Of a stretch of DNA of 54,343 nucleotides, positions 320-12,903 are shown piece after piece; within the stretch, counting starts at the first letter, position 1, and every line of letters begins with the position of its first letter. The position numbers and the translations under genes are program-made. The notes under the pieces are model-generated. The model had not been told where the DNA came from. It searched no databases and saw only the letters and a list, made by a program, of their open reading frames with translations. This DNA comes from Actinomycetota bacterium (GTDB lineage: Bacteria; Actinomycetota; Acidimicrobiia; Acidimicrobiales; Ilumatobacteraceae), in assembly GCA_009726095.1 (NCBI GenBank), contig WLMZ01000010.1, positions 1-54,343 of the forward strand. Reading direction: 5' to 3'.

Positions 320-601
320 CTACTTCGACGTTGAAGCGGTCGTACACCGCGCCGCTCGCTCGTTCGCAAGTTCCTGCATCGTCTCCGGCCCGAAGGTCAG
401 GTTCGTCGCGTACGGGACTGCCTCCTTGAAGTCGCGAACGAATTGTTTGATGTCAACGCAGTCAAGGATGTAGCGCGACCCCTTGAACCACAGTGCCGTC
501 TCGTGGTCGGCCAGCTTCGGCTGGGTCGTGCAGGGACCCATCTGGCATGCAGCCTTCGCCAGATCGGACTTCGGGTTGTCGCGTCGGTGCTGCAGCGGCA
601 C
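320..601 (-). CDS. Hypothetical short protein, possibly broken
   Basis: A GTG-initiated frame of 93 residues with coding-like third positions (mostly G/C). It includes LWFKGSRYILDC, FVRDFKEAVPYATNL and PETMQELANERA. I do not recognise a family. The last residues (CTTASTSK) look unnatural, while a shift of one base near 347-358 gives VYDRFNVEVAEERSAQ, which looks like the natural continuation and then runs into the 15-bp minisatellite. A frameshifted C-terminus is therefore likely. No clear ribosome binding site precedes the GTG, so the 5' end may also be truncated. It lies between a WhiB remnant and the stop of a large secreted-protein gene. Confidence 0.35.
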   Translation of the reverse strand: MPLQHRRDNPKSDLAKAACQMGPCTTQPKLADHETALWFKGSRYILDCVDIKQFVRDFKEAVPYATNLTFGPETMQELANERAARCTTASTSK

Positions 602-619
602 CGGGGGCCCGAACGGGAG

Positions 620-3403
620 CTACGACACGACGATGTCGTCGAAGCGCGTGAAGGTGGGGTCGGCGGCGATGTTGTCGTCGTGGCTGATCAGCGTCAGGGT
701 GTACGACCGGCCCGCTGTGACCGCTGTGGTCACCTGCACCCAGGTGCCGGTGTTGTTGCAGGTCTTGGCGAGCACGGTCTTGGTGGTGCGGGCCTTGACG
801 TCGAGCAGCGTTGCCGTTGCCCAGTCGTAGCTCACCCGGTCAGGGCAGCTGACCCGATACCAGAACGTCAGCTTGGTGGCACCGGTCGGCACGGTGAACG
901 TTTGGGTGATCTTGGAGTCGCCTGACGTTGCAACCACGGCACCGCTCTGGCCGGCCCAGAGTCCGCTGTGCGGTGACGTCACGGCCTGGTTCGTGCCGGA
1001 CGCGATCCACCCGCTGAGCGAGCCCGACTCGAAGCCACCATTGACCACAATGTTGGTCGCCGTGATCGTGAGCGTGACGGGTATCGAGTGGGTCGCTGCA
1101 GTGCCGGTGCCGGTGACGGTGATGTTGTAGGTGCCCTTTGGCGTCAGTGTCGTGGTGGCGATCGTCAACGTCGAAGCGCCGCCCGCAGTGACCGACGTCG
1201 GGCTGAAGGTGGCGGTAGCACCGCTGGGCAATGCCGACGCCGACAGACCGATGGCCTGCGGGGTACCCACCGCTGTCGTGGAGATCACCACGCCGGCCGA
1301 CGTGCCCAAGCTGGTGCTGACGGGGTTGGGTTGGGCAGACATGACGAAATCGGGCAGTGAAACCACAAGGGTGATCGTGGTGGTGTGCGTCGCGCTGGCG
1401 CCAGTGGCCGTGATGGTGATGGGGTACGAGCCAGTGGGTGTGGTCCCCAAGGTGGTGATGGTCAACACCGACCCGGCGCCGGAATTGAGGCTGGCCGGGC
1501 TGAACGATGCGCTGGCGTCGGTAGGCAGGCCCGTGGCGCTGAGGGCCACAGACTGCGCGATGCCGGATGTGGTCGTGGTGGAGACCGCGACGGTGGAATT
1601 GCCGCCAGGGCTCACCGTTGCTGAGGCTGGCGTGGCAGTGACCACGAAGTCAGGAACGATCGGACCTCCGCAACCAGCGAACTTCAGCGAGGCCACGCGG
1701 GTGCGCCAGTTGAACGAACCGGACGCGGGCAGGTACTCGCCGGTGAACCAGAACGTGCAGTCGTCGGCCGGATCGATGTTCATGCTGGCATAGTCACCCC
1801 AGCGCGTCAGCGTGCCGGTCTGCACCCCGCCGCCGGTCACCAGCATGCTCTCGCCCTGTGTGAGCGTGCCGAGGGCATCGGCTGCCAAGCGGCCGGTGGC
1901 TGCCAGCGACGGCTTGGTGGTGCTGCCGGTGACCGAATAGCCGATCGCCATGTTGCCGGACATGTCCATGGCGGCGCTGCTCATCCAGCGTGACCGAGTG
2001 TCGGGTACGTAGGTGCCCTGCTGGAACACGCTCAGGGTGCCAGCGGTGCTGCGCAGTTCGTACCAGCGCACGCCGATGGAACCCGAGGTGACGGCGTGGG
2101 TGACCACCATCGATGCGTAGCTACCGAAGTTGCGGTACGCAAGGCGGAACATCAGGCGATCGGCCAGCGAGTCGAGCAGCGTGGTGGTCCCCGGCTGCGC
2201 GATGCACGTGCGGCCGTTGCACGCCGGGCTGTAGGCCGCAACCGTCAAGTTTGGCTGTTGCACGAAGGTGGAGTTGGCCGGCGTGACCCAATCGACATGG
2301 AACTTCCACGCGGCCAAGGTGGTGTTGGTGGCGCCCAATGCGACCACGTAGTTGGGCTCGCCGGCTGGGGGCGGCACCGAGCCATCGAGATCGGCGGGCA
2401 AGAGGCCGCCGTAGGAGAGGCTGCCCGAGAAGCACTGCTGTGTGGCGGCCTGACCGAGCAGCATCTTGGCACGGTCGAGCGCACAGACCTTCGGGCCCGC
2501 CCAGGCTCCCGACGTGGAGAACAGGTTGTAGGAGATGTAGTACGCATCGGGCCACACCGACAGCTTCGGGTAATCGGGGAAGCTGGCGAACGAGTACGAG
2601 TAACGGTTCCATGTGCCGGTTGGATCGTTGGACGTCGACACAGCGACGCACTCCAGATACGGCCCCGTCGAGGAGCCAGCGTTGGCGAACTGGGTGAACA
2701 CCCAGACCCCCGCAAGCCGGTCGTACCGAACGACCGCATCACCGTCGTTGGTGGTCTCGCACAATCCGCCGAAACCGCTGAAAATCGTGTTGCTCGCAGT
2801 GGGCCCATACGTGGTCACTCCGGTCTTGCTCTGGATCATGAAGCTGGAGTTGACCACGGTGAAGATGGCGGTCTGCCCGACTGCCGAGTTGGGGTCGGGG
2901 GGAGCGCTGCGCACGGTCATGTTGCCGTTGCCCGGACCATCGAAACCGGCGCCAACCGTGGCCGCTCGTGGGGCAACCACACCGGCCTTGACCACCGGGG
3001 CGCGCTGGGCAACAGGATCGACAGCGCCCGTTGCGGGGTGTGGCAGCACATCGAGACGTGTGTCGCCTTCGCGCTCGACCTCGCCGCCGTCGGCATCGGC
3101 CTCGGGCGTGGAGTGCGGCGCGATCGTGCGCAGCGGCGGGGACACATCGTGGCCCTCTGCCCGGGGAGCGGCGACGGAGTTCGGCTCGCTGTTGGCGGCG
3201 GTGTTGGCCGCAGCAGTATCGGGCGGTCCGGCGGGGCGGGCTCCCCGGCGTGTCACCGTTGTGGAGGGCGAGGTGAGCGTGACGGCTGCGAGCGACGCAA
3301 GCACGACGAGGCCGACTGCACCAATGAGCAACCGCGACCTCGATACCCGAGACGCGGGTGACGGTGACGGTGACGGTGACGCTGGTGGGGGTGACGTCGT
3401 CAT
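620..3403 (-). CDS. Large secreted multidomain protein (propeller-like, two Ig-like repeats, C-terminal CBM-like)
   Basis: 927 residues. The start is ATG at 3403 with AAGGAG 8 nt upstream, which rejects longer upstream starts. The N-terminus has an SPSP-rich stretch (a 6-bp GGTGAC repeat, 3357-3380), basic residues and one hydrophobic segment at about 24-42, a signal peptide or membrane anchor. A Pro/Ala-rich linker follows. Residues about 190-580 are Trp/Tyr-rich and strand-rich (VVRYDRLAGVWVFTQF, SNDPTGTWNRYSYSF), resembling a beta-propeller. Two roughly 100-residue repeats (about 582-681 and 682-783) both begin PDFV and hold the S.S...G..A.FSP pattern of bacterial Ig-like modules. The last 140 residues (NGGFESGSLSGW ... 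FDDI) resemble a carbohydrate-binding jelly roll. No catalytic motif was found. It is divergent from the pilin operon, so a surface partner role is possible. Confidence 0.8.
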   Translation of the reverse strand: MTTSPPPASPSPSPSPASRVSRSRLLIGAVGLVVLASLAAVTLTSPSTTVTRRGARPAGPPDTAAANTAANSEPNSVAAPRAEGHDVSPPLRTIAPHSTPEADADGGEVEREGDTRLDVLPHPATGAVDPVAQRAPVVKAGVVAPRAATVGAGFDGPGNGNMTVRSAPPDPNSAVGQTAIFTVVNSSFMIQSKTGVTTYGPTASNTIFSGFGGLCETTNDGDAVVRYDRLAGVWVFTQFANAGSSTGPYLECVAVSTSNDPTGTWNRYSYSFASFPDYPKLSVWPDAYYISYNLFSTSGAWAGPKVCALDRAKMLLGQAATQQCFSGSLSYGGLLPADLDGSVPPPAGEPNYVVALGATNTTLAAWKFHVDWVTPANSTFVQQPNLTVAAYSPACNGRTCIAQPGTTTLLDSLADRLMFRLAYRNFGSYASMVVTHAVTSGSIGVRWYELRSTAGTLSVFQQGTYVPDTRSRWMSSAAMDMSGNMAIGYSVTGSTTKPSLAATGRLAADALGTLTQGESMLVTGGGVQTGTLTRWGDYASMNIDPADDCTFWFTGEYLPASGSFNWRTRVASLKFAGCGGPIVPDFVVTATPASATVSPGGNSTVAVSTTTTSGIAQSVALSATGLPTDASASFSPASLNSGAGSVLTITTLGTTPTGSYPITITATGASATHTTTITLVVSLPDFVMSAQPNPVSTSLGTSAGVVISTTAVGTPQAIGLSASALPSGATATFSPTSVTAGGASTLTIATTTLTPKGTYNITVTGTGTAATHSIPVTLTITATNIVVNGGFESGSLSGWIASGTNQAVTSPHSGLWAGQSGAVVATSGDSKITQTFTVPTGATKLTFWYRVSCPDRVSYDWATATLLDVKARTTKTVLAKTCNNTGTWVQVTTAVTAGRSYTLTLISHDDNIAADPTFTRFDDIVVS

Positions 3404-3450
3404 GGCTGTATCTCCTTCGCCGACGTCGCCGAGGGCGAGATCGTTCGGCC

Positions 3451-3456
3451 AGCCTA
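3451..3456 (-). promoter_or_regulatory. Candidate -10 box for the secreted-protein gene
   Basis: TAGGCT on the minus strand, 47 nt before the ATG at 3403, leaving a short leader that contains the AAGGAG ribosome binding site. No convincing -35 is visible. Confidence 0.35.
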
Positions 3457-3516
3457 GCGCGTCGATCATCACGGTGCGAGACCGAATGATCACGCACAGG
3501 GAAAGTTCGGCCGAGA

Positions 3517-3600
3517 CCGTGGTGAAGGGACCGTGGTGAAGGGACCGTGGTGACGAGACCGTGGTGAAGGGACCGTGGTGAAGGGACCGCGGTGAAGTCA
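3517..3600. repeat. 14-bp tandem repeat, six copies
   Basis: Unit CCGTGGTGAAGGGA: copies 1, 2, 4 and 5 are identical, copy 3 reads CCGTGGTGACGAGA and copy 6 CCGCGGTGAAGTCA. The plus-strand unit holds GAAGGGA, but no start codon follows. It lies in the divergent intergenic region upstream of the pilin operon. Copy-number change would alter the spacing of any upstream control site. Confidence 0.9.
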
Positions 3601-3783
3601 GTGAACACCGACGCCGACGCAGCTCAGCGACGGGCTCGCCGCCCTGGGGGCCGACGGTGTCGTCTGCGGCAGATGGTGACGAACGTCCGTGCGAGTTCCT
3701 GCTCAACTTCGGCAGAAACCGACCGATGAACAGGTGAAGCCCGTCGAATCTGTTGCGAGCTTCGTCGAGAAGACGGTTCCGCC

Positions 3784-4308
3784 ATGGACATCGCGGTTGG
3801 TAGTCGGTCACGGGGACCACTCCCTGCTGGTCGTTGCAACGGGTCGGTCGCCCGGCCGGAATGCCGGCGAGCTGACCGGGGGGTCACCTTCGTCGAGTTG
3901 CTCGTAGCGCTCACCTTGCTCGGTGTTGCAGGGGCCGGAATCCTCGGCGCGCTGGTCGCCTCTGTCAGGGGATCGGCGCTGAACACCTCGCAGTCCTCGG
4001 CTGTGGTGTGGCTGCAGTCCGGCATCGATTATCTCCACGCAGCACCATTCACCGCCTGCACGGTTGGGAGCGAGGCGCAGGTCGGAGCGGTCTACCAGGC
4101 GACGCTTCAGGACAGCGGTGCCCCCCGTAGCCAACGGGGTTGGCCACAATCGAACATCACCGTGGTCCAGCCCGTGCTCTTCTGGAATGGAGCCAGTTTC
4201 ACGGCCACGTGTGTTCCGGGCGCTGCGCTGCAGCAGATCACGGTGCGCGTTGTCAGCGGGAGCAACAGCTACAGCAAGTCGATCACCCTGGTGAAGAGCA
4301 ATGCGTAG
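3784..4308 (+). CDS. Type IV pilin-like protein 1 (minor pseudopilin)
   Basis: 174 residues. A class III signal is visible: basic leader ending RRADRG33, then V34-T-F-V-E38-LLVALTLLG, i.e. cleavage after Gly, Glu at mature position 5, and a hydrophobic N-terminal helix. The rest is a small strand-rich head (WNGASFTATCVPG, ITVRVVSGSNSYSKSITLV) with a few Cys residues. The leader (33 residues) is long for the family; ATG 3784 is the only sensible start in frame and its ribosome binding site is weak. It is the first gene of six in an operon, and its last 8 bases overlap gene 2. Likely an inner-membrane pilin subunit processed by a prepilin peptidase encoded elsewhere. Confidence 0.8.
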   Translation: MDIAVGSRSRGPLPAGRCNGSVARPECRRADRGVTFVELLVALTLLGVAGAGILGALVASVRGSALNTSQSSAVVWLQSGIDYLHAAPFTACTVGSEAQVGAVYQATLQDSGAPRSQRGWPQSNITVVQPVLFWNGASFTATCVPGAALQQITVRVVSGSNSYSKSITLVKSNA

Positions 4309-6382
4309 GCGCAGCGGCCGCCGTGGGCGCGGGGCGGGTTTCACCCTGGTGGAACTGGTGGTGATGATCGCGATCACGGGAGTCATCACGACGTCACTGG
4401 TGAACGGCATCGTCGTGGTCCTGCGGAGCAATGTGGCCGTCAGCACCCGTACCGACGACAGCGGTGACCTGTTGCAGTTGGCAACATGGTTCCCGCAGGA
4501 CGTGAACTCAACGCCGGCAGCAACCGCCATCGGTACAGGTGTCGAGTTGGGAGATCTGACGGCTGGCTGCGCGACAGCCGACGTGGGCGTTGGCCTGCTG
4601 CGGCTCACATGGAGCGAACAGACCGGCACGGGTGCGACCGACACCTATCGGGTGAGCTACCGCAGCCTGACCACCGGCACCGTGGCATCGCTGCTACGGG
4701 TGTCGTGCAAGAACTTCGGTACAGCAAGCACCAACACGGCCTCCCGCAGCGTGCCGCTGTTCGCCGATGGTTCGTTGCCCTTCACGCTCACCGCCGTGGG
4801 ATCCACGGTGACGATGTCGGTCACCCAACACGCCGGTACGAGCGCTCAGAAGGTCGTGCAGATCGATGCCGTGAGCAGAAATCCCAGTATTGCCACCCTG
4901 CCGGATGCGCCGGCGGCACCGCCACCATCAATCATGACGCTCAGCACGGACAGCGTCGATGCAGGCAACGCAATGACGGCCGAGTTCTCGCGGTTCGCAG
5001 CCTCCGAGGCGATCACCGTGTATCTCGATTACACGCACTCGACCTCGGTGGCTGCGGGCAGCATCGGCAGTGGGGTCGCCGATTCGAGTGGTTCGACGAC
5101 AGGCGTGCGACTGTCCATTCCACTCAGCGCCGTCAACGGGCCGCATCAGGTGTTTGCCATCGGGAACGCAGGGAGCTTCGTCGCCGGATCGATCTGGGTG
5201 AACAATGGCACCATCGAGCTGGCCCAGGGCGGCGTGGCGCAGGTGACCCCCGGGGCAACCATCGATGCCGACGTACACGGATTCGACGTCAACGATCTGG
5301 TGACATTCCTGCTCGACTCGAACACCGTCATCGGCACCGTCACGGTGAAGCACAACACGCCCGCCTCCGCCCTGCTCGTGCCGGTCACCACCTCCGGCGG
5401 CCTGCATGTGATCTCGGCAATCGGCACCTCGGGTCGGCGGGCGGTGAGCGGTCCGTTCACCGTGTTGACCACGCTGGCGTTGCTGCCGACCACGGTCCCG
5501 GAGAGCATGGTCACATCGGCCGTGGTCTACGGGTTCCATGCCGGCGAGGCCATCTCGTATCACCTGGACTCGGCAACGGGCGCCGTGCTGGCAACCTCGA
5601 CAGCCGACATGGACGGCTACAACCATGCCACCCTCACGATTCCGCCGTTCACCACTGCGGGGGCCCACGTCATCGAGGCTGTGGGCGACGGCAACAGCAG
5701 CGGCGCAGCGCTCCTGAACGTGACCACCTCGGTCAGGGCGTTCACCGTGACGCCGAATCAGGCGACGGTGACCGCCGGGGGATATGCCCTCTTGACGCTG
5801 CAGGCGACGATCAACGGTGTCAACGATCCAACCCTGACTGGCGCGCAGCCGATCGTGGTGAGCGGACCATCGAATTCACCGAACGGCCGCTCGCCAGCGA
5901 CCTTTCCGTCGAGCGCCACCTTCGTTGCCGGCACGGCCACGATCTCGGTGAACCTTGTGAACGCGATACCCACCAAGATCACGGTGACCGACATCGCGGC
6001 GCCGGTACGAACGGGTGAGAGCCTGGCCATGACCGTGACGGCCGCTCCCGCAGCCGCACTGGCCTTTGCCGTCGCCTGTCCGCAGCCGATCACCAACAAC
6101 TGGAACTCCGGCGTGACCGTTAGCGACCAGTTCGGGAACGTGGTCAGCGGCGCCGCTGTCACGCTCACCTTCTCTCCCGCGATTGGTTCGAACGCGAGCG
6201 TTCGTGCCCTGTCCGGATGGCCAACGATCACCGCCAACATCGCCTACGGGTCGGTCACGAACGCCTCGGGGAGCACCGCCAGTTTCACCGCCACCGGCCC
6301 CACAGGAAACGGCCACAAGCCGTCGGTGCTCGTGACCGCTTCGACCGCCGCCCTCAGCACCAGCTGCACGGTGACATCATGA
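4301..6382 (+). CDS. Type IV pilin-like protein 2 with long Ig-like ectodomain
   Basis: 693 residues, very long for a pilin. The N-terminus is a textbook prepilin: GRGAG13 | F14-T-L-V-E18-LVVMIAITG. Residues about 40-200 form a pilin-like head; about 205-460 hold three similar modules of roughly 85 residues starting MTLSTDSVDAG, VTPGATIDADVHGF and LLPTTVPESMVTS, each with a (G)F.A...V..Y/LLD motif. The C-terminal about 230 residues resemble invasin/Big-type Ig domains (FTVTPNQATVTAGG; TVSDQFGNVVSGAAVTLTF). The start ATG overlaps gene 1 (ATGCGTAG) and its stop overlaps the next start (ATGA), so translation is coupled. Inferred role: an elongated pilus-associated or adhesive subunit. No catalytic residues were noted. 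Confidence 0.8.
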   Translation: MRRRSGRRGRGAGFTLVELVVMIAITGVITTSLVNGIVVVLRSNVAVSTRTDDSGDLLQLATWFPQDVNSTPAATAIGTGVELGDLTAGCATADVGVGLLRLTWSEQTGTGATDTYRVSYRSLTTGTVASLLRVSCKNFGTASTNTASRSVPLFADGSLPFTLTAVGSTVTMSVTQHAGTSAQKVVQIDAVSRNPSIATLPDAPAAPPPSIMTLSTDSVDAGNAMTAEFSRFAASEAITVYLDYTHSTSVAAGSIGSGVADSSGSTTGVRLSIPLSAVNGPHQVFAIGNAGSFVAGSIWVNNGTIELAQGGVAQVTPGATIDADVHGFDVNDLVTFLLDSNTVIGTVTVKHNTPASALLVPVTTSGGLHVISAIGTSGRRAVSGPFTVLTTLALLPTTVPESMVTSAVVYGFHAGEAISYHLDSATGAVLATSTADMDGYNHATLTIPPFTTAGAHVIEAVGDGNSSGAALLNVTTSVRAFTVTPNQATVTAGGYALLTLQATINGVNDPTLTGAQPIVVSGPSNSPNGRSPATFPSSATFVAGTATISVNLVNAIPTKITVTDIAAPVRTGESLAMTVTAAPAAALAFAVACPQPITNNWNSGVTVSDQFGNVVSGAAVTLTFSPAIGSNASVRALSGWPTITANIAYGSVTNASGSTASFTATGPTGNGHKPSVLVTASTAALSTSCTVTS

Positions 6383-7788
6383 AGGCCCGCCGGGACGTTG
6401 GCTTCATCTTGCCGTTGGCCATGGTGATGACCGTCGTGCTCGGTGCCGTCGTCGTTGGCGTGGCCACCTATTCGGCTGCGTCGCTGCGATACGGACGCAC
6501 CGTCGAGCGGCGCGTCGAGCGCCTTGCAGCATCCGATGCCGGAATGCACATTGCGTTGGAGAAGCTACGGACGAAGTCAGCCACGTGCACGGCCACCCCC
6601 ACCACCCTGTATGTGGCAACCATTAACTCGAAGTCGGTCAAGGTCACCTGCACCAGAACAGCGATCCTGTCCAGTGAGGCAAACCAATTTGCTGTCGTGG
6701 TCACCGGGGTCGGCGTACCTTCGGGTTCGGCATCATGGATTGCCCAGGGCACCAACAACTCCTCGCAGTCGCGTCAGATCGGCGGCAATGTGTACATCGC
6801 TTCGCCACCTGCAGCCCTCGACAAGCCGGTCAACATCACCAACGGCGATCTCTGGTACCCGGCGGCAGGCAACGGCGCCTGCGTCGATCCGAGCTGGTCC
6901 AACCTGACCTTCAGCCCCGCAGACGAGCGGGGGTTCAACTGCACGACGTCGACGTGGCAGACGATGTTCCCCGTCCCGCTGCTGCCCGCACCACCCGTCA
7001 TCGCCAGAGGCGCATCGGGCGTCACCGACAGCAATGGTTGCACGGTCTTCCAGCCGGGCGTGTACACCAGCCCGCCGATCATCGGATCGGGTACCCAGAA
7101 CTTCTTCGCTCCGGGCACGTACTACTTCCATTTCGACGGCCGCATCAGCATCAAGAACGCGCTGGTGATCGGTGGCGTCACCGGGCAGAGCGGACTCGGT
7201 TCATCTCCGGTGGCTCGCACACCCACCACCTTCACCTCGCCGTGGTGTGCATCGGCGATCGCTGCGGCGACCAACGGTGCTGCGCCGAACACCGGTGTGT
7301 CGTGGATCTTCGGTGGGAGCAGCGGCATCGCCATCGATCCCAATGGTCAGCTCGAGCTGTTTGCGCCACCGCGGCTTGTTGCCCTGCCAGCGATCAACCC
7401 CTCGATCGTCGCCCTGCAGTCGACATCCGGCGGCTACGCACCCAACACGCTCGGTTCCGTGGGCACGCCGCTGATCGACCTGCAGGAGGGATCGAACGAC
7501 GGCATCGTCGTGCACGGCGGGGTGTGGGCGCCCGCCAATGCGGTCAACCTCGGCAACATTGCCCAGGCGGCCAACGGAGAGTTCATGGGTGGGCTCGTCG
7601 TGGGCCTGCTGAACATGCAGACGGCGGCCAGCATCGGCAACTTCAACATGAGTGTCCTCACCGGACCCTCGCAGCGCAAGGTCAATCTGACCTCGGTGGC
7701 CGACCAGCTCACCACGACCCAGGTCGTGGCGCTGATCCGGTCATCGACGGGCACCATCTCGATCAACTCATGGCGAATCACGTCCTGA
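6379..7788 (+). CDS. PilX/GspK-like pilin without Glu5, protein 3
   Basis: 469 residues. Short leader MKARRDVG8, then F9-ILPLAMVMTVVLGAVVVG: a prepilin-type helix in which mature position 5 is Leu, not Glu. Loss of Glu5 is characteristic of GspK/PilX-type tip subunits (family knowledge). The ectodomain is Gly/Ser/Asn-rich, with CTVFQPGVYTSP, FFAPGTYYFHFDGRISIKN and SWIFGGSSGIAIDPNG; it looks like a beta-helix or layered sheet. The same pattern recurs in gene 6 of the operon (CSVYFPGTYKDP, VFFTSGIYYFENTVRIS), and both end in a (V/I)NSW motif, so the two are paralogues. The start ATG 6379 overlaps the previous stop (ATGA). It is followed by a 165-bp gap, the only sizeable one in the operon. Confidence 0.78.
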   Translation: MKARRDVGFILPLAMVMTVVLGAVVVGVATYSAASLRYGRTVERRVERLAASDAGMHIALEKLRTKSATCTATPTTLYVATINSKSVKVTCTRTAILSSEANQFAVVVTGVGVPSGSASWIAQGTNNSSQSRQIGGNVYIASPPAALDKPVNITNGDLWYPAAGNGACVDPSWSNLTFSPADERGFNCTTSTWQTMFPVPLLPAPPVIARGASGVTDSNGCTVFQPGVYTSPPIIGSGTQNFFAPGTYYFHFDGRISIKNALVIGGVTGQSGLGSSPVARTPTTFTSPWCASAIAAATNGAAPNTGVSWIFGGSSGIAIDPNGQLELFAPPRLVALPAINPSIVALQSTSGGYAPNTLGSVGTPLIDLQEGSNDGIVVHGGVWAPANAVNLGNIAQAANGEFMGGLVVGLLNMQTAASIGNFNMSVLTGPSQRKVNLTSVADQLTTTQVVALIRSSTGTISINSWRITS

Positions 7789-7953
7789 CGCCGCTCGAAC
7801 GGGCACTCGAACGGGCACTCGAACGGGCGCCGTCGGTTGCCGGACCACCCACGAACAGGTGTCACATGCGCAGCGCAACACAAGAAATGTGTTCTTTCGC
7901 CTCAACCTTGGGCCCTTCGCCGCCGATGCCTCTTGGTAAGCCATGGAGCATCC
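7789..7953. other. Intra-operon gap
   Basis: 165 bp between pilin genes 3 and 4. It contains a 12-bp minisatellite at its start and a GGAG ribosome binding site at 7945-7948 for the next gene. No gene or clear hairpin terminator was seen. Confidence 0.5.
7794..7829. repeat. 12-bp tandem repeat, three copies
   Basis: Unit CTCGAACGGGCA, three copies (the last ends G). It starts 5 bp after the stop codon of pilin gene 3, in the only long gap of the operon. Another example of short in-phase repeats in this locus. Confidence 0.85.
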
Positions 7954-8457
7954 ATGGATCGAGACCACAACGGATCGGTTATGGACATCGCGACACACGA
8001 GGAAATCGACTGCGCGATCGATACGAGTGCCGCCGACGGCGGATTCTCTCTCGTCGAGCTGATCATGACGATTGCGCTCATGGCGATCCTGATCGCGCCG
8101 CTCATGGTCGGCGTCGTTTCCACCATCCGGGCATCGTCGAACACGCGAGTGCTCGCACAGGTGCAAACGGTCCTTCAGAACGCTGCTGATCGTGTGAACC
8201 GTGCCCCGAAGAAGTGCGACTACACCGTGTACGCACAGGCAGCCGCCCAGTCCGAGGGGTGGGCCGCCGATCGGGCCAGCATTGTGCAATCGCGGTTCGT
8301 TCCCGCTGCGTCGCCCACGTCGGCTGGCTCATGGGTGAGCGGGGCCTGCTCGGGAGCGATCCCAGAAGATCTCCTCGTTCAGGTCATCACGATCACCGTG
8401 ACCAGCCCGACAGGTTCGGTCCAAAGCTCAATCCAGGTGGTGAAGAGTGATATCTGA
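7954..8457 (+). CDS. Type IV pilin-like protein 4
   Basis: 167 residues. Acidic leader of 30 residues ending SAADGG30, then F31-S-L-V-E35-LIMTIALMAILIAPLMVG: a clear class III signal with Glu5. The head is short, with VLQNAADRVNRAPKKCDYTVYAQ, a second Cys in GACSG, and a strand-rich end (ITVTSPTGSVQSSIQVV) similar to the end of pilin 1. Start ATG 7954 is chosen because GGAG lies 5 nt upstream; ATG 7981 is a weaker alternative. The end overlaps the next gene by 11 bases. Its small size suggests a minor pseudopilin forming a complex with genes 1, 2 and 5. Confidence 0.8.
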   Translation: MDRDHNGSVMDIATHEEIDCAIDTSAADGGFSLVELIMTIALMAILIAPLMVGVVSTIRASSNTRVLAQVQTVLQNAADRVNRAPKKCDYTVYAQAAAQSEGWAADRASIVQSRFVPAASPTSAGSWVSGACSGAIPEDLLVQVITITVTSPTGSVQSSIQVVKSDI

Positions 8458-11431
8458 ACTGAAGCACAAGCATCGCGACGAGGGCCTGACCCTGCCGGAA
8501 CTGCTGATCGGTGTCGTCGTGTTCGGCATGTTGATGTATTCCATCTCGGCGGCCATCATCGTGATCGCACGCCAGAACGACAACTCAACGGGCCGTCTGA
8601 ACAACGCCAGATCAGAGCAGAACGTTGGCGTTTGGATGCCTGCAGATCTGGCGTCGGCGCAAACCGTGAGCGTGCTGGCCAACGCGTCGCCGTGCGGTAC
8701 GAGTTGCCCGGTCGGGCTCAACGTCGGGGGATCGAACGCGCTGATGCTCGAGTGGGACAGTCAGGTGGCCGGGTCCACTTCGTCGGTCAACACCCACACG
8801 GCCGTGTCGTACCGCTACTTGCAGGTGGGCACTGAGTGGCAGATGATCCGTATCGGCTGCACAACGGTGGGGGCCGCAGCCCCGACGTGCTCGAGCAGCG
8901 TCATCTTGCATAACCTTCCCGCTCCGCCCGATGGCGTGGCGTGGGTTCCCGGCACGACGGTGCCGTATTGGGTCATCCAGGTCAGCCAGCCGCTCGACCC
9001 CGCCGACATCGGCGGGACCGGTTCCACCGTGCCGATTGACCCCAATGCCCTGACCAAGAATGCCCAACGCGTGGTGGTCACCGTGAACGGTGGCGGCGAT
9101 GCCGCCGGGGCCGGCGGTGGGCAGAACCAGATCAGTCTGAGTGCGGGCGGCACCAACCGGACCACCATCGATGCGTCCAGCCTCAACGGAACACCGAGCT
9201 TCAGCCAGGCCCGCTCGCGGTGCGGCGGCAACATCGCACTCATCATCGACGAGTCCGGTTCGATCGGCTCGACGGCAATGGCATCGATCAAGACGGCGGT
9301 GAGTAACTTCATTGACAAGTTCGAGGGCACACCGGTGAAGTTGGAGTTGGTGCTGTTCGATACCCGATCGAGCGTGCTCGGTACCACTGGCTGGACCCGC
9401 TATTTCGACATGCTCAACAGCACCGACGTCACGACGCTGCGGAGTGCCCTGTCGGCCCTGCGCTCGAGCGGCAGCACCAACTGGGAAGATGCCTGGTACC
9501 GGCTCTTTTACAACAGCGACGGCACCGTGCAGACCATCATTCCCGATCTCGTGGTGTTCTTCACCGACGGCATCCCCAACCTCAGCCGGCTCAACTACAG
9601 CTCGGCCACCGGACCCACGAACCCCCCGGCGGCCCTGGTGGGTTACCCGGCGGCCAACGGCAGCACCTACAACCAGGAGGCGTTCTTCCGTGCGAACGAA
9701 ATCGCCCGCACCTTCCGCTCGACCGTGAAGTTCATCGGGGTTGGTGTGGGCACGGAGATCGGCAGCACATCGACCTGGATCAACAGCGTCACCGGGCTGC
9801 GCTACGTGTACGAGCGGGGCTACCACCTCGGATACGAGCGGAGCTTTCACTATCAGCGCAGCTTCCATTATCAACGGAGCTTCCATTATCAGCGCAGCTT
9901 CCATTATCAGCGCAGCTTCCATTATCAGCGCAGCTTCCACTACCAGCTGAGCGTCCACTACCAGACCAAGATCGGTACGACCTGGACCTCGGGCACCTAC
10001 GCCACGTATCAGAGCGCCGCAACGGCGAAGAAGCGGATTCTCTACGAGCCGCCGTACGCCGACAGCCGGAGCAACTTGGACTACTGGGAGAACGTGCCCC
10101 AGGCGACCTACAACCTGGCATCGCTGGGTGCTCCCGCCACGAGCGCGCCGGGCAATGCCACCAAGCGCATCACCTACGAGGCAACCACGGGGACGAACGA
10201 CTACTGGGAGAACGTCACCCTGGCGACCTACAACGCCACGGCGACCACTGCCCGCCAGATCCTGGTGGGGGCGGTCACCGGTACCAACGACTTTTGGGAA
10301 AACGTGGACCTGGCGACCTACAACGCCACGGCGACCACCGCCCGCCAGACCCTGGTGGGGGCGATCACCGGTACCAACGACTATTGGGAGAACGTCACCC
10401 TGGCGACCTACAACGCCACGGCGACCACCGCCCGCCAGATTCTGTTCGGGGCGGTCACGGGCACGTACGACTATTGGGAGAACGTCACCCTGGCGACCTA
10501 CAACGCCACGGCGACCACCGCCCGCCAGATTCTGGTGGGGGCGGTCACGGGCACGTACGACTACTGGGAAAACGACACGACCCTAGCCCTGTACACCAGT
10601 GCGGCCACCACGGCACGTCGGATCACCTACGGCGTTCCGACGGCCAGCAACGACTACTGGGAGACCACGACACAGTCGTTGTACAACATCAACAACACCA
10701 CGTCCGACGAAGCCGACGGCTGGCGCGACCGCACATATTCTGCGCCGTACGACTCGTGGGAGAACTCGACGCAGACGTTGTACAACGCCGGCAACACCAC
10801 TGCCGATTCAACCGATGGGTGGCGTATCCGTGAGGAGTACTCCGAACCGTTCACGAACTACACCACGAGCACCACGACCACGAGCAACGCGACCATCCTG
10901 ACCCGCCTGGTCGCTGGCAACGACTTCGGCGTGCCGGCGCTGTTGTCGGGCGGGGTGTACACCAACGTCGACGAGGCCAACATGTACATCATGCCCGACT
11001 ACACGGCATTCGCCTCGGCGCTGCAGGCGGTAGCCCTCGCCCAATGCGGAGGCACGGTGACGCTGCAGACCAAGGTGGGCACTTCGGCCGCCGCAGACCC
11101 ATTCACGTACCAGAACACCGTCACCAAGAATGCTGCAGGCGTGGCGGTGAACACCGGCCAGAACGTGGTCACGACCTCGAAGCAGTTCACCAGTGGCACC
11201 TTCGACTTCTCGATCAACAACGGCCAGTACGTCACCGTGGACATCCAGCCGCAGAACCTGTCGGACCTCTCGGCCTACGCGCCGTCGACCTGGTCGTGCA
11301 AGGCCGGTCCGAACAGCCGGAGCATCTCAACGGTCGACATTGCAGGCACGAACTGGAAGGGCATCCGTGTGCAGGTGGCGGCGAACGAAGCCGTGTCATG
11401 CATCCAGACGGTGACCCGGGTGAACCCATGA
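8447..11431 (+). CDS. Pilin-like protein 5 with vWA (MIDAS) domain interrupted by repeat arrays
   Basis: 994 residues, GTG start. Prepilin signal: RDEG13 | L14-T-L-P-E18-LLIGVVVFG. A pilin-like head extends to about 255. A von Willebrand A domain begins at IALIIDESGSIGS, with MIDAS residues D268-x-S270-x-S272, T344 (SSGSTNW) and D374 (FFTDG), and a further core strand VKFIGVGVG. Then, instead of the last helix, come 7 copies of a hexapeptide (residues 465-506) and about nine roughly 30-residue YWEN...ATYN repeats (to about 805). The likely last vWA helix (FASALQAVALAQCGG) comes only after them, near residue 855. The final 130 residues are a strand-rich domain with two further Cys. Inference: a metal-dependent adhesin at a pilus tip, with a repeat stalk in a vWA loop. 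The start overlaps gene 4 and the end overlaps gene 6 (ATGA). Confidence 0.82.
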   Translation: MISELKHKHRDEGLTLPELLIGVVVFGMLMYSISAAIIVIARQNDNSTGRLNNARSEQNVGVWMPADLASAQTVSVLANASPCGTSCPVGLNVGGSNALMLEWDSQVAGSTSSVNTHTAVSYRYLQVGTEWQMIRIGCTTVGAAAPTCSSSVILHNLPAPPDGVAWVPGTTVPYWVIQVSQPLDPADIGGTGSTVPIDPNALTKNAQRVVVTVNGGGDAAGAGGGQNQISLSAGGTNRTTIDASSLNGTPSFSQARSRCGGNIALIIDESGSIGSTAMASIKTAVSNFIDKFEGTPVKLELVLFDTRSSVLGTTGWTRYFDMLNSTDVTTLRSALSALRSSGSTNWEDAWYRLFYNSDGTVQTIIPDLVVFFTDGIPNLSRLNYSSATGPTNPPAALVGYPAANGSTYNQEAFFRANEIARTFRSTVKFIGVGVGTEIGSTSTWINSVTGLRYVYERGYHLGYERSFHYQRSFHYQRSFHYQRSFHYQRSFHYQRSFHYQLSVHYQTKIGTTWTSGTYATYQSAATAKKRILYEPPYADSRSNLDYWENVPQATYNLASLGAPATSAPGNATKRITYEATTGTNDYWENVTLATYNATATTARQILVGAVTGTNDFWENVDLATYNATATTARQTLVGAITGTNDYWENVTLATYNATATTARQILFGAVTGTYDYWENVTLATYNATATTARQILVGAVTGTYDYWENDTTLALYTSAATTARRITYGVPTASNDYWETTTQSLYNINNTTSDEADGWRDRTYSAPYDSWENSTQTLYNAGNTTADSTDGWRIREEYSEPFTNYTTSTTTTSNATILTRLVAGNDFGVPALLSGGVYTNVDEANMYIMPDYTAFASALQAVALAQCGGTVTLQTKVGTSAAADPFTYQNTVTKNAAGVAVNTGQNVVTTSKQFTSGTFDFSINNGQYVTVDIQPQNLSDLSAYAPSTWSCKAGPNSRSISTVDIAGTNWKGIRVQVAANEAVSCIQTVTRVNP
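9839..9964 (+). repeat. 18-bp in-frame tandem repeat encoding RSFHYQ, seven copies
   Basis: Seven head-to-tail 18-bp units within the vWA-pilin gene. Copies 1-6 all encode RSFHYQ although they differ at several bases (CGG/CGC, TTT/TTC, CAC/CAT, TAT/TAC, CAG/CAA); copy 7 encodes LSVHYQ. Every difference among the first six is synonymous, which argues for selection on the peptide. The preceding YHLGYE may be a degenerate eighth unit. Confidence 0.95.
10081..10860 (+). repeat. 90-bp tandem repeat array (YWEN repeats)
   Basis: The unit codes for about 30 residues with the pattern (N/Y)D-Y-W-E-N-V-T-L-A-T-Y-N-A-T-A-T-T-A-R. Four units with exact 90-bp period and high identity lie at 10201-10290, 10291-10380, 10381-10470 and 10471-10560. 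Diverged units flank them: 10081-10200 (120 bp), 10561-10653 (93 bp), then copies ending near 10860. Identity is highest in the centre and falls towards both ends, as expected for repeats expanding by unequal exchange or slippage. All are in frame in the vWA-pilin gene. Confidence 0.93.
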
Positions 11432-12903
11432 TGCGAAGCTCCAACAGGCAGCGGTCGGGCCGGACCGCTGATCCTGTAGTCACCACCGATGAGGGCTCGG
11501 CGATGATCATGATGCTCGTGATGATCATCATCTGTTCGCTGGTCGTGATCCCCGTGCTGCGCTACGCCACCGCCGTGACCCGATCAGCCCGCGTCCAGCA
11601 GTCGAAGTCGATGCGAATCGAAGCGGTCAAGGGTGGCCTGCGCACTGCCCTTGCTGACCCGATCTCGCTCTACAAGTCCTGTGACGCTGCCGGTCTCACC
11701 GTGTCTGTGGCGCTGGCCGAACCACTGCTCACCACCAAGGTCGCGAGCAAGTGCTACAAGATGAACGACGTCACCGCCTCTGACCCGTTGAACCTGCGCT
11801 ATGCGGTCGCCACCACGCAGGTGGGCGCCGCGGTACCCACGGACTCAGCGGGCACCGCCTTCCCCGGGTCCGGAGCGGCTCCGGCATCGGCGTGGCAGGC
11901 CAGCGCGTTCGTGACCCCAAAGCTGAACACGGTGTGGGCGCCGGACCTACCCGCCCACGGGCTGAATCAGCGTTCGAACAGCGGTTACGCGATGCCCACC
12001 GGCTTCGCCACCTGCTCGGTCTACTTTCCCGGCACCTACAAGGATCCGCTGACCATCACCGGTTCGACCCCGGTGTTCTTCACCTCGGGCATCTATTACT
12101 TCGAGAACACCGTGCGCATCAGCGGCAACGCCAACGTGGTCGTTGGCGATGGCGGCACGCAGGGCTGCTCGAACGACCAGGAGGCAGCGTTCTACGCCAC
12201 CAATGCCCCCTCCACCCACAACATCTCAGGCCTTGGCGCCACGTTCGTCTTCGGTTCGACAGGGCGGTTGGTGATCGACAACGTCACCGCCGGCAACACG
12301 AGCATCGTGTTCAACCAGCGCTACGTCGCCGCCACCGACGCCAGCACCCTGTCATCGGCGGGGGTCTCCATCGAGTCGGTCAACGGTGTGATCTCCGGCG
12401 GCGACCAATCCGACCTGACCCTTGCCGGCTTCCTCAGCGTGCCGCAGTCAAGGGTGGGTGGCGCCACCATCACCACGGCGGTCTCGCAGTCCTACGTACC
12501 CTCCACGCTCGTGCCTACCGCTCCGATCGCGCCGGCGGTGGTGCCCACCAATCCGTTGCCGATCATTGACATCAACCTGTCCACGGCAGCCACGGTCAAC
12601 GTGATCATCCCCGGGTACGTGTCGGTGCCGCAGGGCCTCGTGAACGTGAACGTGGCCTCTGTCGCTGCAGCGGCGAACAAGACCATTCAGCTTGCGGGAG
12701 GCGTTCTGGCAGCGTCGTACACGGTCACCGATCAACGGCCGGCGAGCTTCGTGCTCGGCCTGTTGAACCCGATCATCCAGAAGATCTTCAAGATCGTCAC
12801 CATCACCGACACGAGCATCGGTGCCCCGGTCATTACCTCGACAGCCATTGTGCAGGTGAACCAGAACGGCGCCTACGCCGTGAACAGTTGGGCCGTGCAG
12901 TAA
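11428..12903 (+). CDS. PilX/GspK-like pilin without Glu5, protein 6
   Basis: 491 residues; ATG 11428 overlaps the previous stop (ATGA), with a second ATG next to it. The leader ends TTDEG23, then S24-AMIMMLVMIIICSLVVIP: a pilin-like helix without Glu at mature position 5. The ectodomain shares with pilin 3 a Cys followed by VYFPGTY, a FF.(S/P)G.YYF block, RIS..N..V and an FGS(T/S)GR.(V/A)ID motif, and ends AVNSW. Between them it has an extra segment of roughly 160 residues rich in Val, Pro and Thr. It is the last gene of the operon; a strong hairpin follows. Inferred to be a second tip or priming subunit in the pseudopilin complex. Confidence 0.78.
   Translation: MMRSSNRQRSGRTADPVVTTDEGSAMIMMLVMIIICSLVVIPVLRYATAVTRSARVQQSKSMRIEAVKGGLRTALADPISLYKSCDAAGLTVSVALAEPLLTTKVASKCYKMNDVTASDPLNLRYAVATTQVGAAVPTDSAGTAFPGSGAAPASAWQASAFVTPKLNTVWAPDLPAHGLNQRSNSGYAMPTGFATCSVYFPGTYKDPLTITGSTPVFFTSGIYYFENTVRISGNANVVVGDGGTQGCSNDQEAAFYATNAPSTHNISGLGATFVFGSTGRLVIDNVTAGNTSIVFNQRYVAATDASTLSSAGVSIESVNGVISGGDQSDLTLAGFLSVPQSRVGGATITTAVSQSYVPSTLVPTAPIAPAVVPTNPLPIIDINLSTAATVNVIIPGYVSVPQGLVNVNVASVAAAANKTIQLAGGVLAASYTVTDQRPASFVLGLLNPIIQKIFKIVTITDTSIGAPVITSTAIVQVNQNGAYAVNSWAVQ

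Follow-up and report, generated by a model that had tools for sequence, protein, structure and literature searches.

A prepilin gene with a split vWA domain

Inspection of contig WLMZ01000010.1 of an Ilumatobacteraceae genome (assembly GCA_009726095.1), a stretch of 54,343 nt referred to here as the window, showed an open reading frame (ORF) at 8447–11431 that codes for a prepilin-like protein with a von Willebrand factor A (vWA) domain and a metal ion-dependent adhesion site (MIDAS). The vWA domain is interrupted by a long, repeat-containing insert, named the arm, in the loop between strand β5 and helix α6 (Table 1). An earlier reading of the same letters (the original prediction) had proposed that the repeats form an insertion in a vWA surface loop of a pilus-bound, metal-dependent adhesin; the ORF and the MIDAS residues D268, S270, S272, T344 and D374 were found exactly as it gave them. 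All five residues were invariant wherever covered in 39 aligned sequences, and the label of a metal-dependent adhesin fits this conservation, although both metal binding and adhesion would be inferred properties. The third-codon-position GC content was high and alike before (0.84), inside (0.87) and after (0.88) the insert, which is therefore coded in the same frame as the rest of the gene.

Table 1. Features of the vWA-pilin locus (positions in the window; MIDAS, metal ion-dependent adhesion site; pLDDT, predicted local distance difference test; TRF, Tandem Repeats Finder)
Feature	Position	Strand	Basis
Prepilin-vWA protein, 994 aa, GTG start	8447..11431	+	ORF reading; 33-row alignment of homologues
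Class III leader peptide, residues 1–13; cleavage expected between G13 and L14, E18 at +5	8447..8485	+	Sequence
Pilin module, ~residues 14–245: long helix 16–70 and β head	8486..9181	+	AlphaFold2 model
vWA first part, residues 259–435, β1 to β5	9221..9751	+	PF00092 E 7.6e-8; pLDDT mostly >90
MIDAS codons D268 (9248–9250), S270 (9254–9256), S272 (9260–9262)	within 9248..9568	+	Invariant
MIDAS codons T344 (9476–9478), D374 (9566–9568)	within 9248..9568	+	Invariant
Insert (arm), residues 436–816, 381 aa, β5–α6 loop, no cysteine	9752..10894	+	Homologue alignment, composition
Array 1, six RSFHYQ hexapeptides, residues 465–500	9839..9946	+	18-bp period, TRF score 173
Array 2, ~4.3 near-identical 90-bp (30-aa) units	10196..10578	+	TRF score 598
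Two full-length conserved 34-residue units (W..T...Y...N...DGW...Y..P) by the arm base	10658..10861	+	Unit profile E 1.6e-16, 4.5e-18
vWA second part, residues 817–867: α6, β6, α7, end C867	10895..11047	+	pLDDT ~85–96; structural alignments to ~868
C-terminal all-β domain, residues 870–991, invariant C951 and C985	11054..11419	+	AlphaFold2 pLDDT ~90; alignment
Upstream prepilin (V position), 11-bp overlap with the vWA gene	7837..8457	+	PF07963 E 8.6e-5; conserved order
Downstream protein (X position), hydrophobic N-terminal segment, overlapping start	11428..12903	+	Locus comparison
Sister cassette, directly upstream: V 3784–4308, W 4301–6382, X 6379–7788	3784..7788	+	PF07963 in V

The Pfam VWA match was confined to residues 262–378 and reached only position 116 of the 174 in the profile, which is what a fold continued after the insert would give. 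In the AlphaFold2 model of the protein, run with 33 sequences, the vWA core (strands 261–268, 297–304, 368–373 and 428–434) had pLDDT values mostly above 90. Strand β5 was followed by a long strand (441–467), the low-confidence repeats, and two further strands (792–797 and 804–813); then came a helix (814–823), a strand (846–849), a helix (852–867) and the β domain (870–991). The vWA fold was complete only with the three post-insert elements at 814–867. The helix FASALQAVALAQCGG (852–867), proposed in the original prediction as the vWA element that reappears after the repeats, is thus supported as such by the model, but not as the only one, since helix 814–823 and strand 846–849 also belong to the vWA fold. 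Likewise, the insert does lie in the vWA domain, but its bounds, placed originally at 465–840, are by homology 436–816. In vWA topology the β5–α6 loop opens on the MIDAS face.

The model of a natural homologue with a loop of only 33 residues (L077, 664 aa) showed strand β5 at 428–434, a short stub, a helix (466–475), a strand (506–509) and a helix (514–525), i.e. the same order of elements as in the window protein. The original prediction had proposed modelling with and without the insert as a check; the long form and this natural short form yielded the same vWA fold. Solved vWA domains aligned to residues ~259–868 of the window model (best Z 20.1, root-mean-square deviation (rmsd) 2.2 over 178 residues), so the matched stretch spans the insert; for the short form, the match covered residues 243–530 (Z 19.3). 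Further, C259, located just before β1, and C867, which ends the last helix, were invariant where covered, insert-less homologues included. The natural inference from this pattern is a disulphide that would close the vWA domain, as in the A domains of von Willebrand factor.

The N-terminal part has the hallmarks of a class III prepilin signal (the G13–L14 junction, E18 and a helix at 16–43 in sequence and model). Among 33 family members, PF07963 was detected in 22 and TIGR02532 in 28. The effector part of the protein (vWA domain, arm and β domain) lies entirely behind the pilin module, after residue ~250, as judged from Pfam and the AlphaFold2 model.

Natural variation in the length of the loop

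Homologues were collected from whole genomes of Ilumatobacteraceae and from GTDB contigs; nearly all derive from metagenome assemblies, with one genome per species. The close homologues were from Actinomycetota, many of them labelled Ilumatobacteraceae, Ilumatobacter or Acidimicrobiaceae, and in a class-wide sample strong full matches were confined to Ilumatobacteraceae, the other families matching the pilin or the vWA part only. Loop length was counted, in the alignment of 39 sequences, as the residues that separate the end of β5 (FIGVGVG, 429–435) from the start of α6 (ILTRLVAG, 817 on). Homologues lacking the insert, which the original prediction had suggested looking for, were found: the loop had 10–11 residues in four of the 39. 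It had 27–46 residues in nine, 96–104 in three and 170–432 in 21 (381 in the window protein); one sequence reached 470 and another 608. Both edges of the insert could be aligned through this entire series, which places the insert within a single vWA loop. The short-loop homologues, the two AlphaFold2 models, the insert-spanning alignments and the C259/C867 pair all support the proposal that the repeats interrupt the vWA domain.

The ends of the insert recurred in most of the long forms, and no cysteine was present among 7102 residues of long inserts. In a tree of the core sequences, the forms with no insert fell on one long branch, opposite those with a short or a long one. On one contig of genome G026 (locus L038), vWA pilins with no arm, a short arm and a long arm stood together; their loops had 11, 104 (ORF cut by the contig end) and 235 residues. 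At another locus, the homologue was read in two overlapping frames (L067:7962-9620 and 8981-11476), possibly because of a frameshift or an assembly error in the repeat region.

Repeats that build the arm

Compared with the rest of the window protein, the insert is rich in tyrosine (9.7 vs 2.6%) and threonine (18.9 vs 10.0%), and is enriched in tryptophan and histidine too. In most long forms the first part of the insert is Tyr/His-rich (GYH..Y.RGYH...); in the window protein the hexapeptides of array 1 occupy this place. The second part contains a 34-residue unit, approximately W-x3-T-x3-Y-x3-N-T-x5-DGW-x5-Y-x2-P-[YF], which occurs up to 10 times in one protein. In the window protein there are two full copies plus six shorter or diverged ones, and two units were confidently modelled as strand-helix-strand (737–763 and 770–797). 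W1, T5, N13, D20, G21 and P31 were invariant in 22 units sampled from different lineages, although these units were chosen by a pattern that already demanded several of the invariant positions. Diverged units still matched the unit profile.

The four units of array 2 shared 0.87–0.96 DNA identity. Three of them differed mostly synonymously (six synonymous and one nonsynonymous codons, and five and one), while unit 616 had as many nonsynonymous as synonymous differences. This near-identity and synonymous bias fit a recent tandem duplication under some constraint on the protein.

Run against 61 genomes, the profile of the 34-residue unit matched vWA-pilin genes only, and it had no match among PDB sequences. 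The repeats belonged to no family in Pfam or NCBIfam, the insert gave weak, chance-level matches only in PHROGs, and the plasmid and phage collections searched gave no match. The 34-residue unit, which has no counterpart by sequence in Pfam or in the PDB, may represent a new repeat fold. Two homologues had arms of another kind (L063:7974-11645, with an arm of 608 residues, and L083:831-4091, with 470): these contained Tyr/His strings that recur every eight residues (THGYHYTY), and a repeat of a different type (..SAKQYSAPYTAYDTNTDGSGYS..), to which the 34-residue unit profile gave no score. Their Tyr/His stretch may bind metal.

Gene neighbourhood and pilus machinery

The vWA gene lies between two genes for pilin-like proteins. 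The three positions are named V, W and X, names that refer to position only and not to homology with PilV, PilW or PilX. A prepilin triad with overlapping ends recurred at the majority of 31 compared loci. In the sister cassette, the W protein (4301–6382) had a pilin module with 30% identity to that of the 8447–11431 protein (E 5.7e-10), and no vWA match in Pfam. Two tandem triads with a common pilin carrier and different effectors suggest a swap-the-tip arrangement.

Three short tandem repeats were noted elsewhere in the window. Between the two triads (7794–7828) lie 2.9 copies, 100% identical, of the 12-bp repeat CTCGAACGGGCA. Upstream of the first triad (3512–3597), in or near the presumed start of a long minus-strand ORF (620–3820), there are ~6 copies of a 14-bp repeat with 92% matches. 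Finally, 6.9 copies of the 15-bp repeat GCGTCGCGGTCGCAC (94% matches) are present at 192–294.

The genome to which the window belongs encodes a full-length PilB-type ATPase (G000:C1:28172-29821, E 8.5e-158), with a PilT-like match nearby; the matches to this ATPase fall under the curated cut-off of the family in all 61 genomes. Among the Ilumatobacteraceae, a vWA pilin was present in 15 of 20 genomes with a full-length PilB and in one of 17 without it (Fisher 3e-5, not corrected for kinship). In relatives, the genes adjoining the vWA pilins include a PilB with an MshEN domain and an A24 peptidase with its N-terminal domain. At L055 the triad is followed by PilT-, A24-peptidase-, PilC- and PilB-type genes, while at L069 PilB- and PilC-type genes precede it and a second, PilT-type ATPase follows. 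The prepilin signal, the prepilin triad, the co-occurrence with a PilB-type ATPase and these pil gene clusters agree with the pilus-bound location assigned to the protein originally.

Comparison with known vWA proteins

To our knowledge, the described adhesins that combine a type IV pilin with a vWA domain amount to one solved structure, that of PilB from Streptococcus sanguinis, and a few models. In PilB, a pilin module is joined to a vWA domain that bears two arms next to the MIDAS; the protein is a demonstrated adhesin in which the MIDAS matters (PMC8179133). Like the window protein, it has a class III signal, an N-terminal pilin module, a canonical MIDAS and arms beside it (PDB 7B7P). However, its arms are short, the second being a four-stranded sheet, and no repeats are described in them; moreover, the matched chain ends at the vWA domain, whereas the window protein adds a C-terminal β domain. 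PilB was absent from the sequence matches of the PDB searches. In the structural comparison it aligned to residues 47–867 of the window model, a match that therefore begins within the pilin module (Z 18.5); the high rmsd (12.2) reflects a different placement of the two modules.

CpaL of Caulobacter crescentus is a pilin whose vWA domain, with a MIDAS, is split by a β-rich insert of ~180 residues (204–384); this insert is located after the DxTxS motif (160–164) but before the MIDAS Thr (470), and is directed away from the metal site (PMC12607857). A pilin module and a vWA domain split by a large insert are thus common to both proteins, but CpaL belongs to another pilus type (cpa genes) and has no described tandem-repeat array. 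An insert of the CpaL type is missing from the window protein, in which S272 and T344 are just 72 residues apart. In RrgA, GBS104 and Mfa5, an ARM2 of 98–123 residues is inserted after β4, the strand of the MIDAS Asp (PMC7835359). These are also bacterial pilus adhesins with a vWA domain, a MIDAS and a large insert near it, although their insert lies one loop earlier, they are not type IV pilins, and no repeat arrays or length series are described for them. An ARM2-type insert is likewise missing here: the β4-to-helix loop of the window protein has ~35 residues (374–409), and the long insert follows β5.

The α1 and α2 I domains, found among the structural matches of the window model, are a further case. 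The integrin α1/α2 I domains carry an extra helix (αC) in the βE–α6 loop, topologically the same position; αC is one short helix of eukaryotic receptors, in contrast to the 96–608 residues seen here. PilY1/PilC proteins present a vWA domain with a MIDAS at the tip of type IV pili by means of minor pilins, but are not pilins themselves and have a C-terminal β-propeller. The window protein shares the vWA domain and the MIDAS but is itself a prepilin, and no Pfam match to the PilC/PilY1 β-propeller appeared. The original claim that no described protein has this layout therefore needs narrowing, given the split vWA domain of CpaL and the pilin, vWA and arms of PilB; what is new relative to the precedents is the loop used, the size of the insert, its construction from tandem units and the repeat-driven variation in length.

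Proposed function and alternative explanations

The window protein is likely, from its sequence and model, to be a modular minor type IV pilin, probably located at the pilus tip, with an adhesive or ligand-binding MIDAS head and a variable arm. The prepilin would be cleaved between G13 and L14, and its pilin module would bring it into the pilus along with the pilin-like proteins encoded on either side. By analogy with the argument made for PilB of S. sanguinis (PMC8179133), the most likely position is the tip, which has room for the bulky vWA head. The head, with its intact MIDAS, would serve as the adhesive or ligand-binding module. The arm would rise from the β5–α6 loop on the MIDAS face, with a base formed by a β ribbon (strand 441–467 plus strands 792–813) and a body of units rich in aromatic residues and Thr, first Tyr/His-rich hexapeptides and then strand-helix-strand units of 30–34 residues. 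Through tandem duplication and loss of units, arm length would differ from lineage to lineage on an unchanged vWA core; the arm is therefore the probable determinant of reach, avidity and range of targets. A bolder version, which we regard as tentative, holds that the orphan, lineage-restricted β-repeat arm is itself the binding surface, and that occupancy or tension would be passed through its roots in β5 and α6 to the MIDAS and α7, so that reach evolves by copy number while the switch stays constant.

Several observations weigh against this interpretation. The middle of the arm (469–502 and 534–734) had pLDDT values below 50 and could be disordered; the N_methyl score of the window protein itself, 15.5 bits, lies under the Pfam cut-off of 21.2; in its own genome, the vWA-pilin cluster and pilB lie on different contigs; repeat counts taken from a metagenome assembly may be wrong; and adhesion could be due to just one of the two, arm or MIDAS, or to neither. 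The vWA head might instead act chiefly as a mechanosensor or regulator of pilus dynamics, with the arm as a lever that bears force or increases drag. Among described pilins, the nearest with a split vWA domain is CpaL, for which a mechanosensor role has been put forward (PMC12607857); the vWA domain of PilY1 responds to force (PMC12607857; PMC9210963), and the arm meets the core at two neighbouring points of one loop; yet aromatic-rich, lineage-variable arrays resemble a binding surface more than a lever, and we consider this role unlikely. Somewhat less likely again is that the repeats have expanded neutrally or almost so, as a functionless and perhaps disordered insert in a permissive loop that tolerates slippage. 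The near-identity of the 90-bp units, the low confidence in the middle of the arm and the range of loop lengths among relatives (10–608) would all fit such slippage, but not the invariant positions of the 34-residue units (pattern-picked as they are), the profile matches of diverged units, the mostly synonymous differences in array 2 (the even count of unit 616 aside), or the recurrent ends and absence of cysteine in the long inserts.

Prepilin-type minor subunits occur also in type II secretion-like and Tad-type systems, and the protein could serve a pseudopilus or a Tad-type apparatus of that kind. The MshEN-domain PilB, PilC, PilT-type second ATPase and A24 peptidase encoded beside homologue genes make this improbable, as does the co-occurrence of a full-length PilB-type ATPase; the second ATPase, typical of retraction, argues for a type IV pilus. 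As for a vWA domain that closes before residue 465, with the later helix in a separate domain, the end of the Pfam match at residue 378 could be read that way, but in the models the fold does not close there and the helix is part of it. Homologues with loops of 10–46 residues, the alignments reaching ~868 and the C259/C867 pair point in the same direction and leave this reading with hardly any credibility.

With the modular tip pilin as the favoured explanation, the range of 10 to 608 residues in a single loop, with the vWA core constant, makes the role of an arm beside the MIDAS testable with natural variants. Judging from their sequences, the Ilumatobacteraceae appear to lengthen or shorten the arm on one fixed adhesion head. 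No described pilus adhesin of this family was found in literature searches, and these mostly uncultured aquatic actinobacteria gain a concrete candidate for attachment to surfaces or particles.

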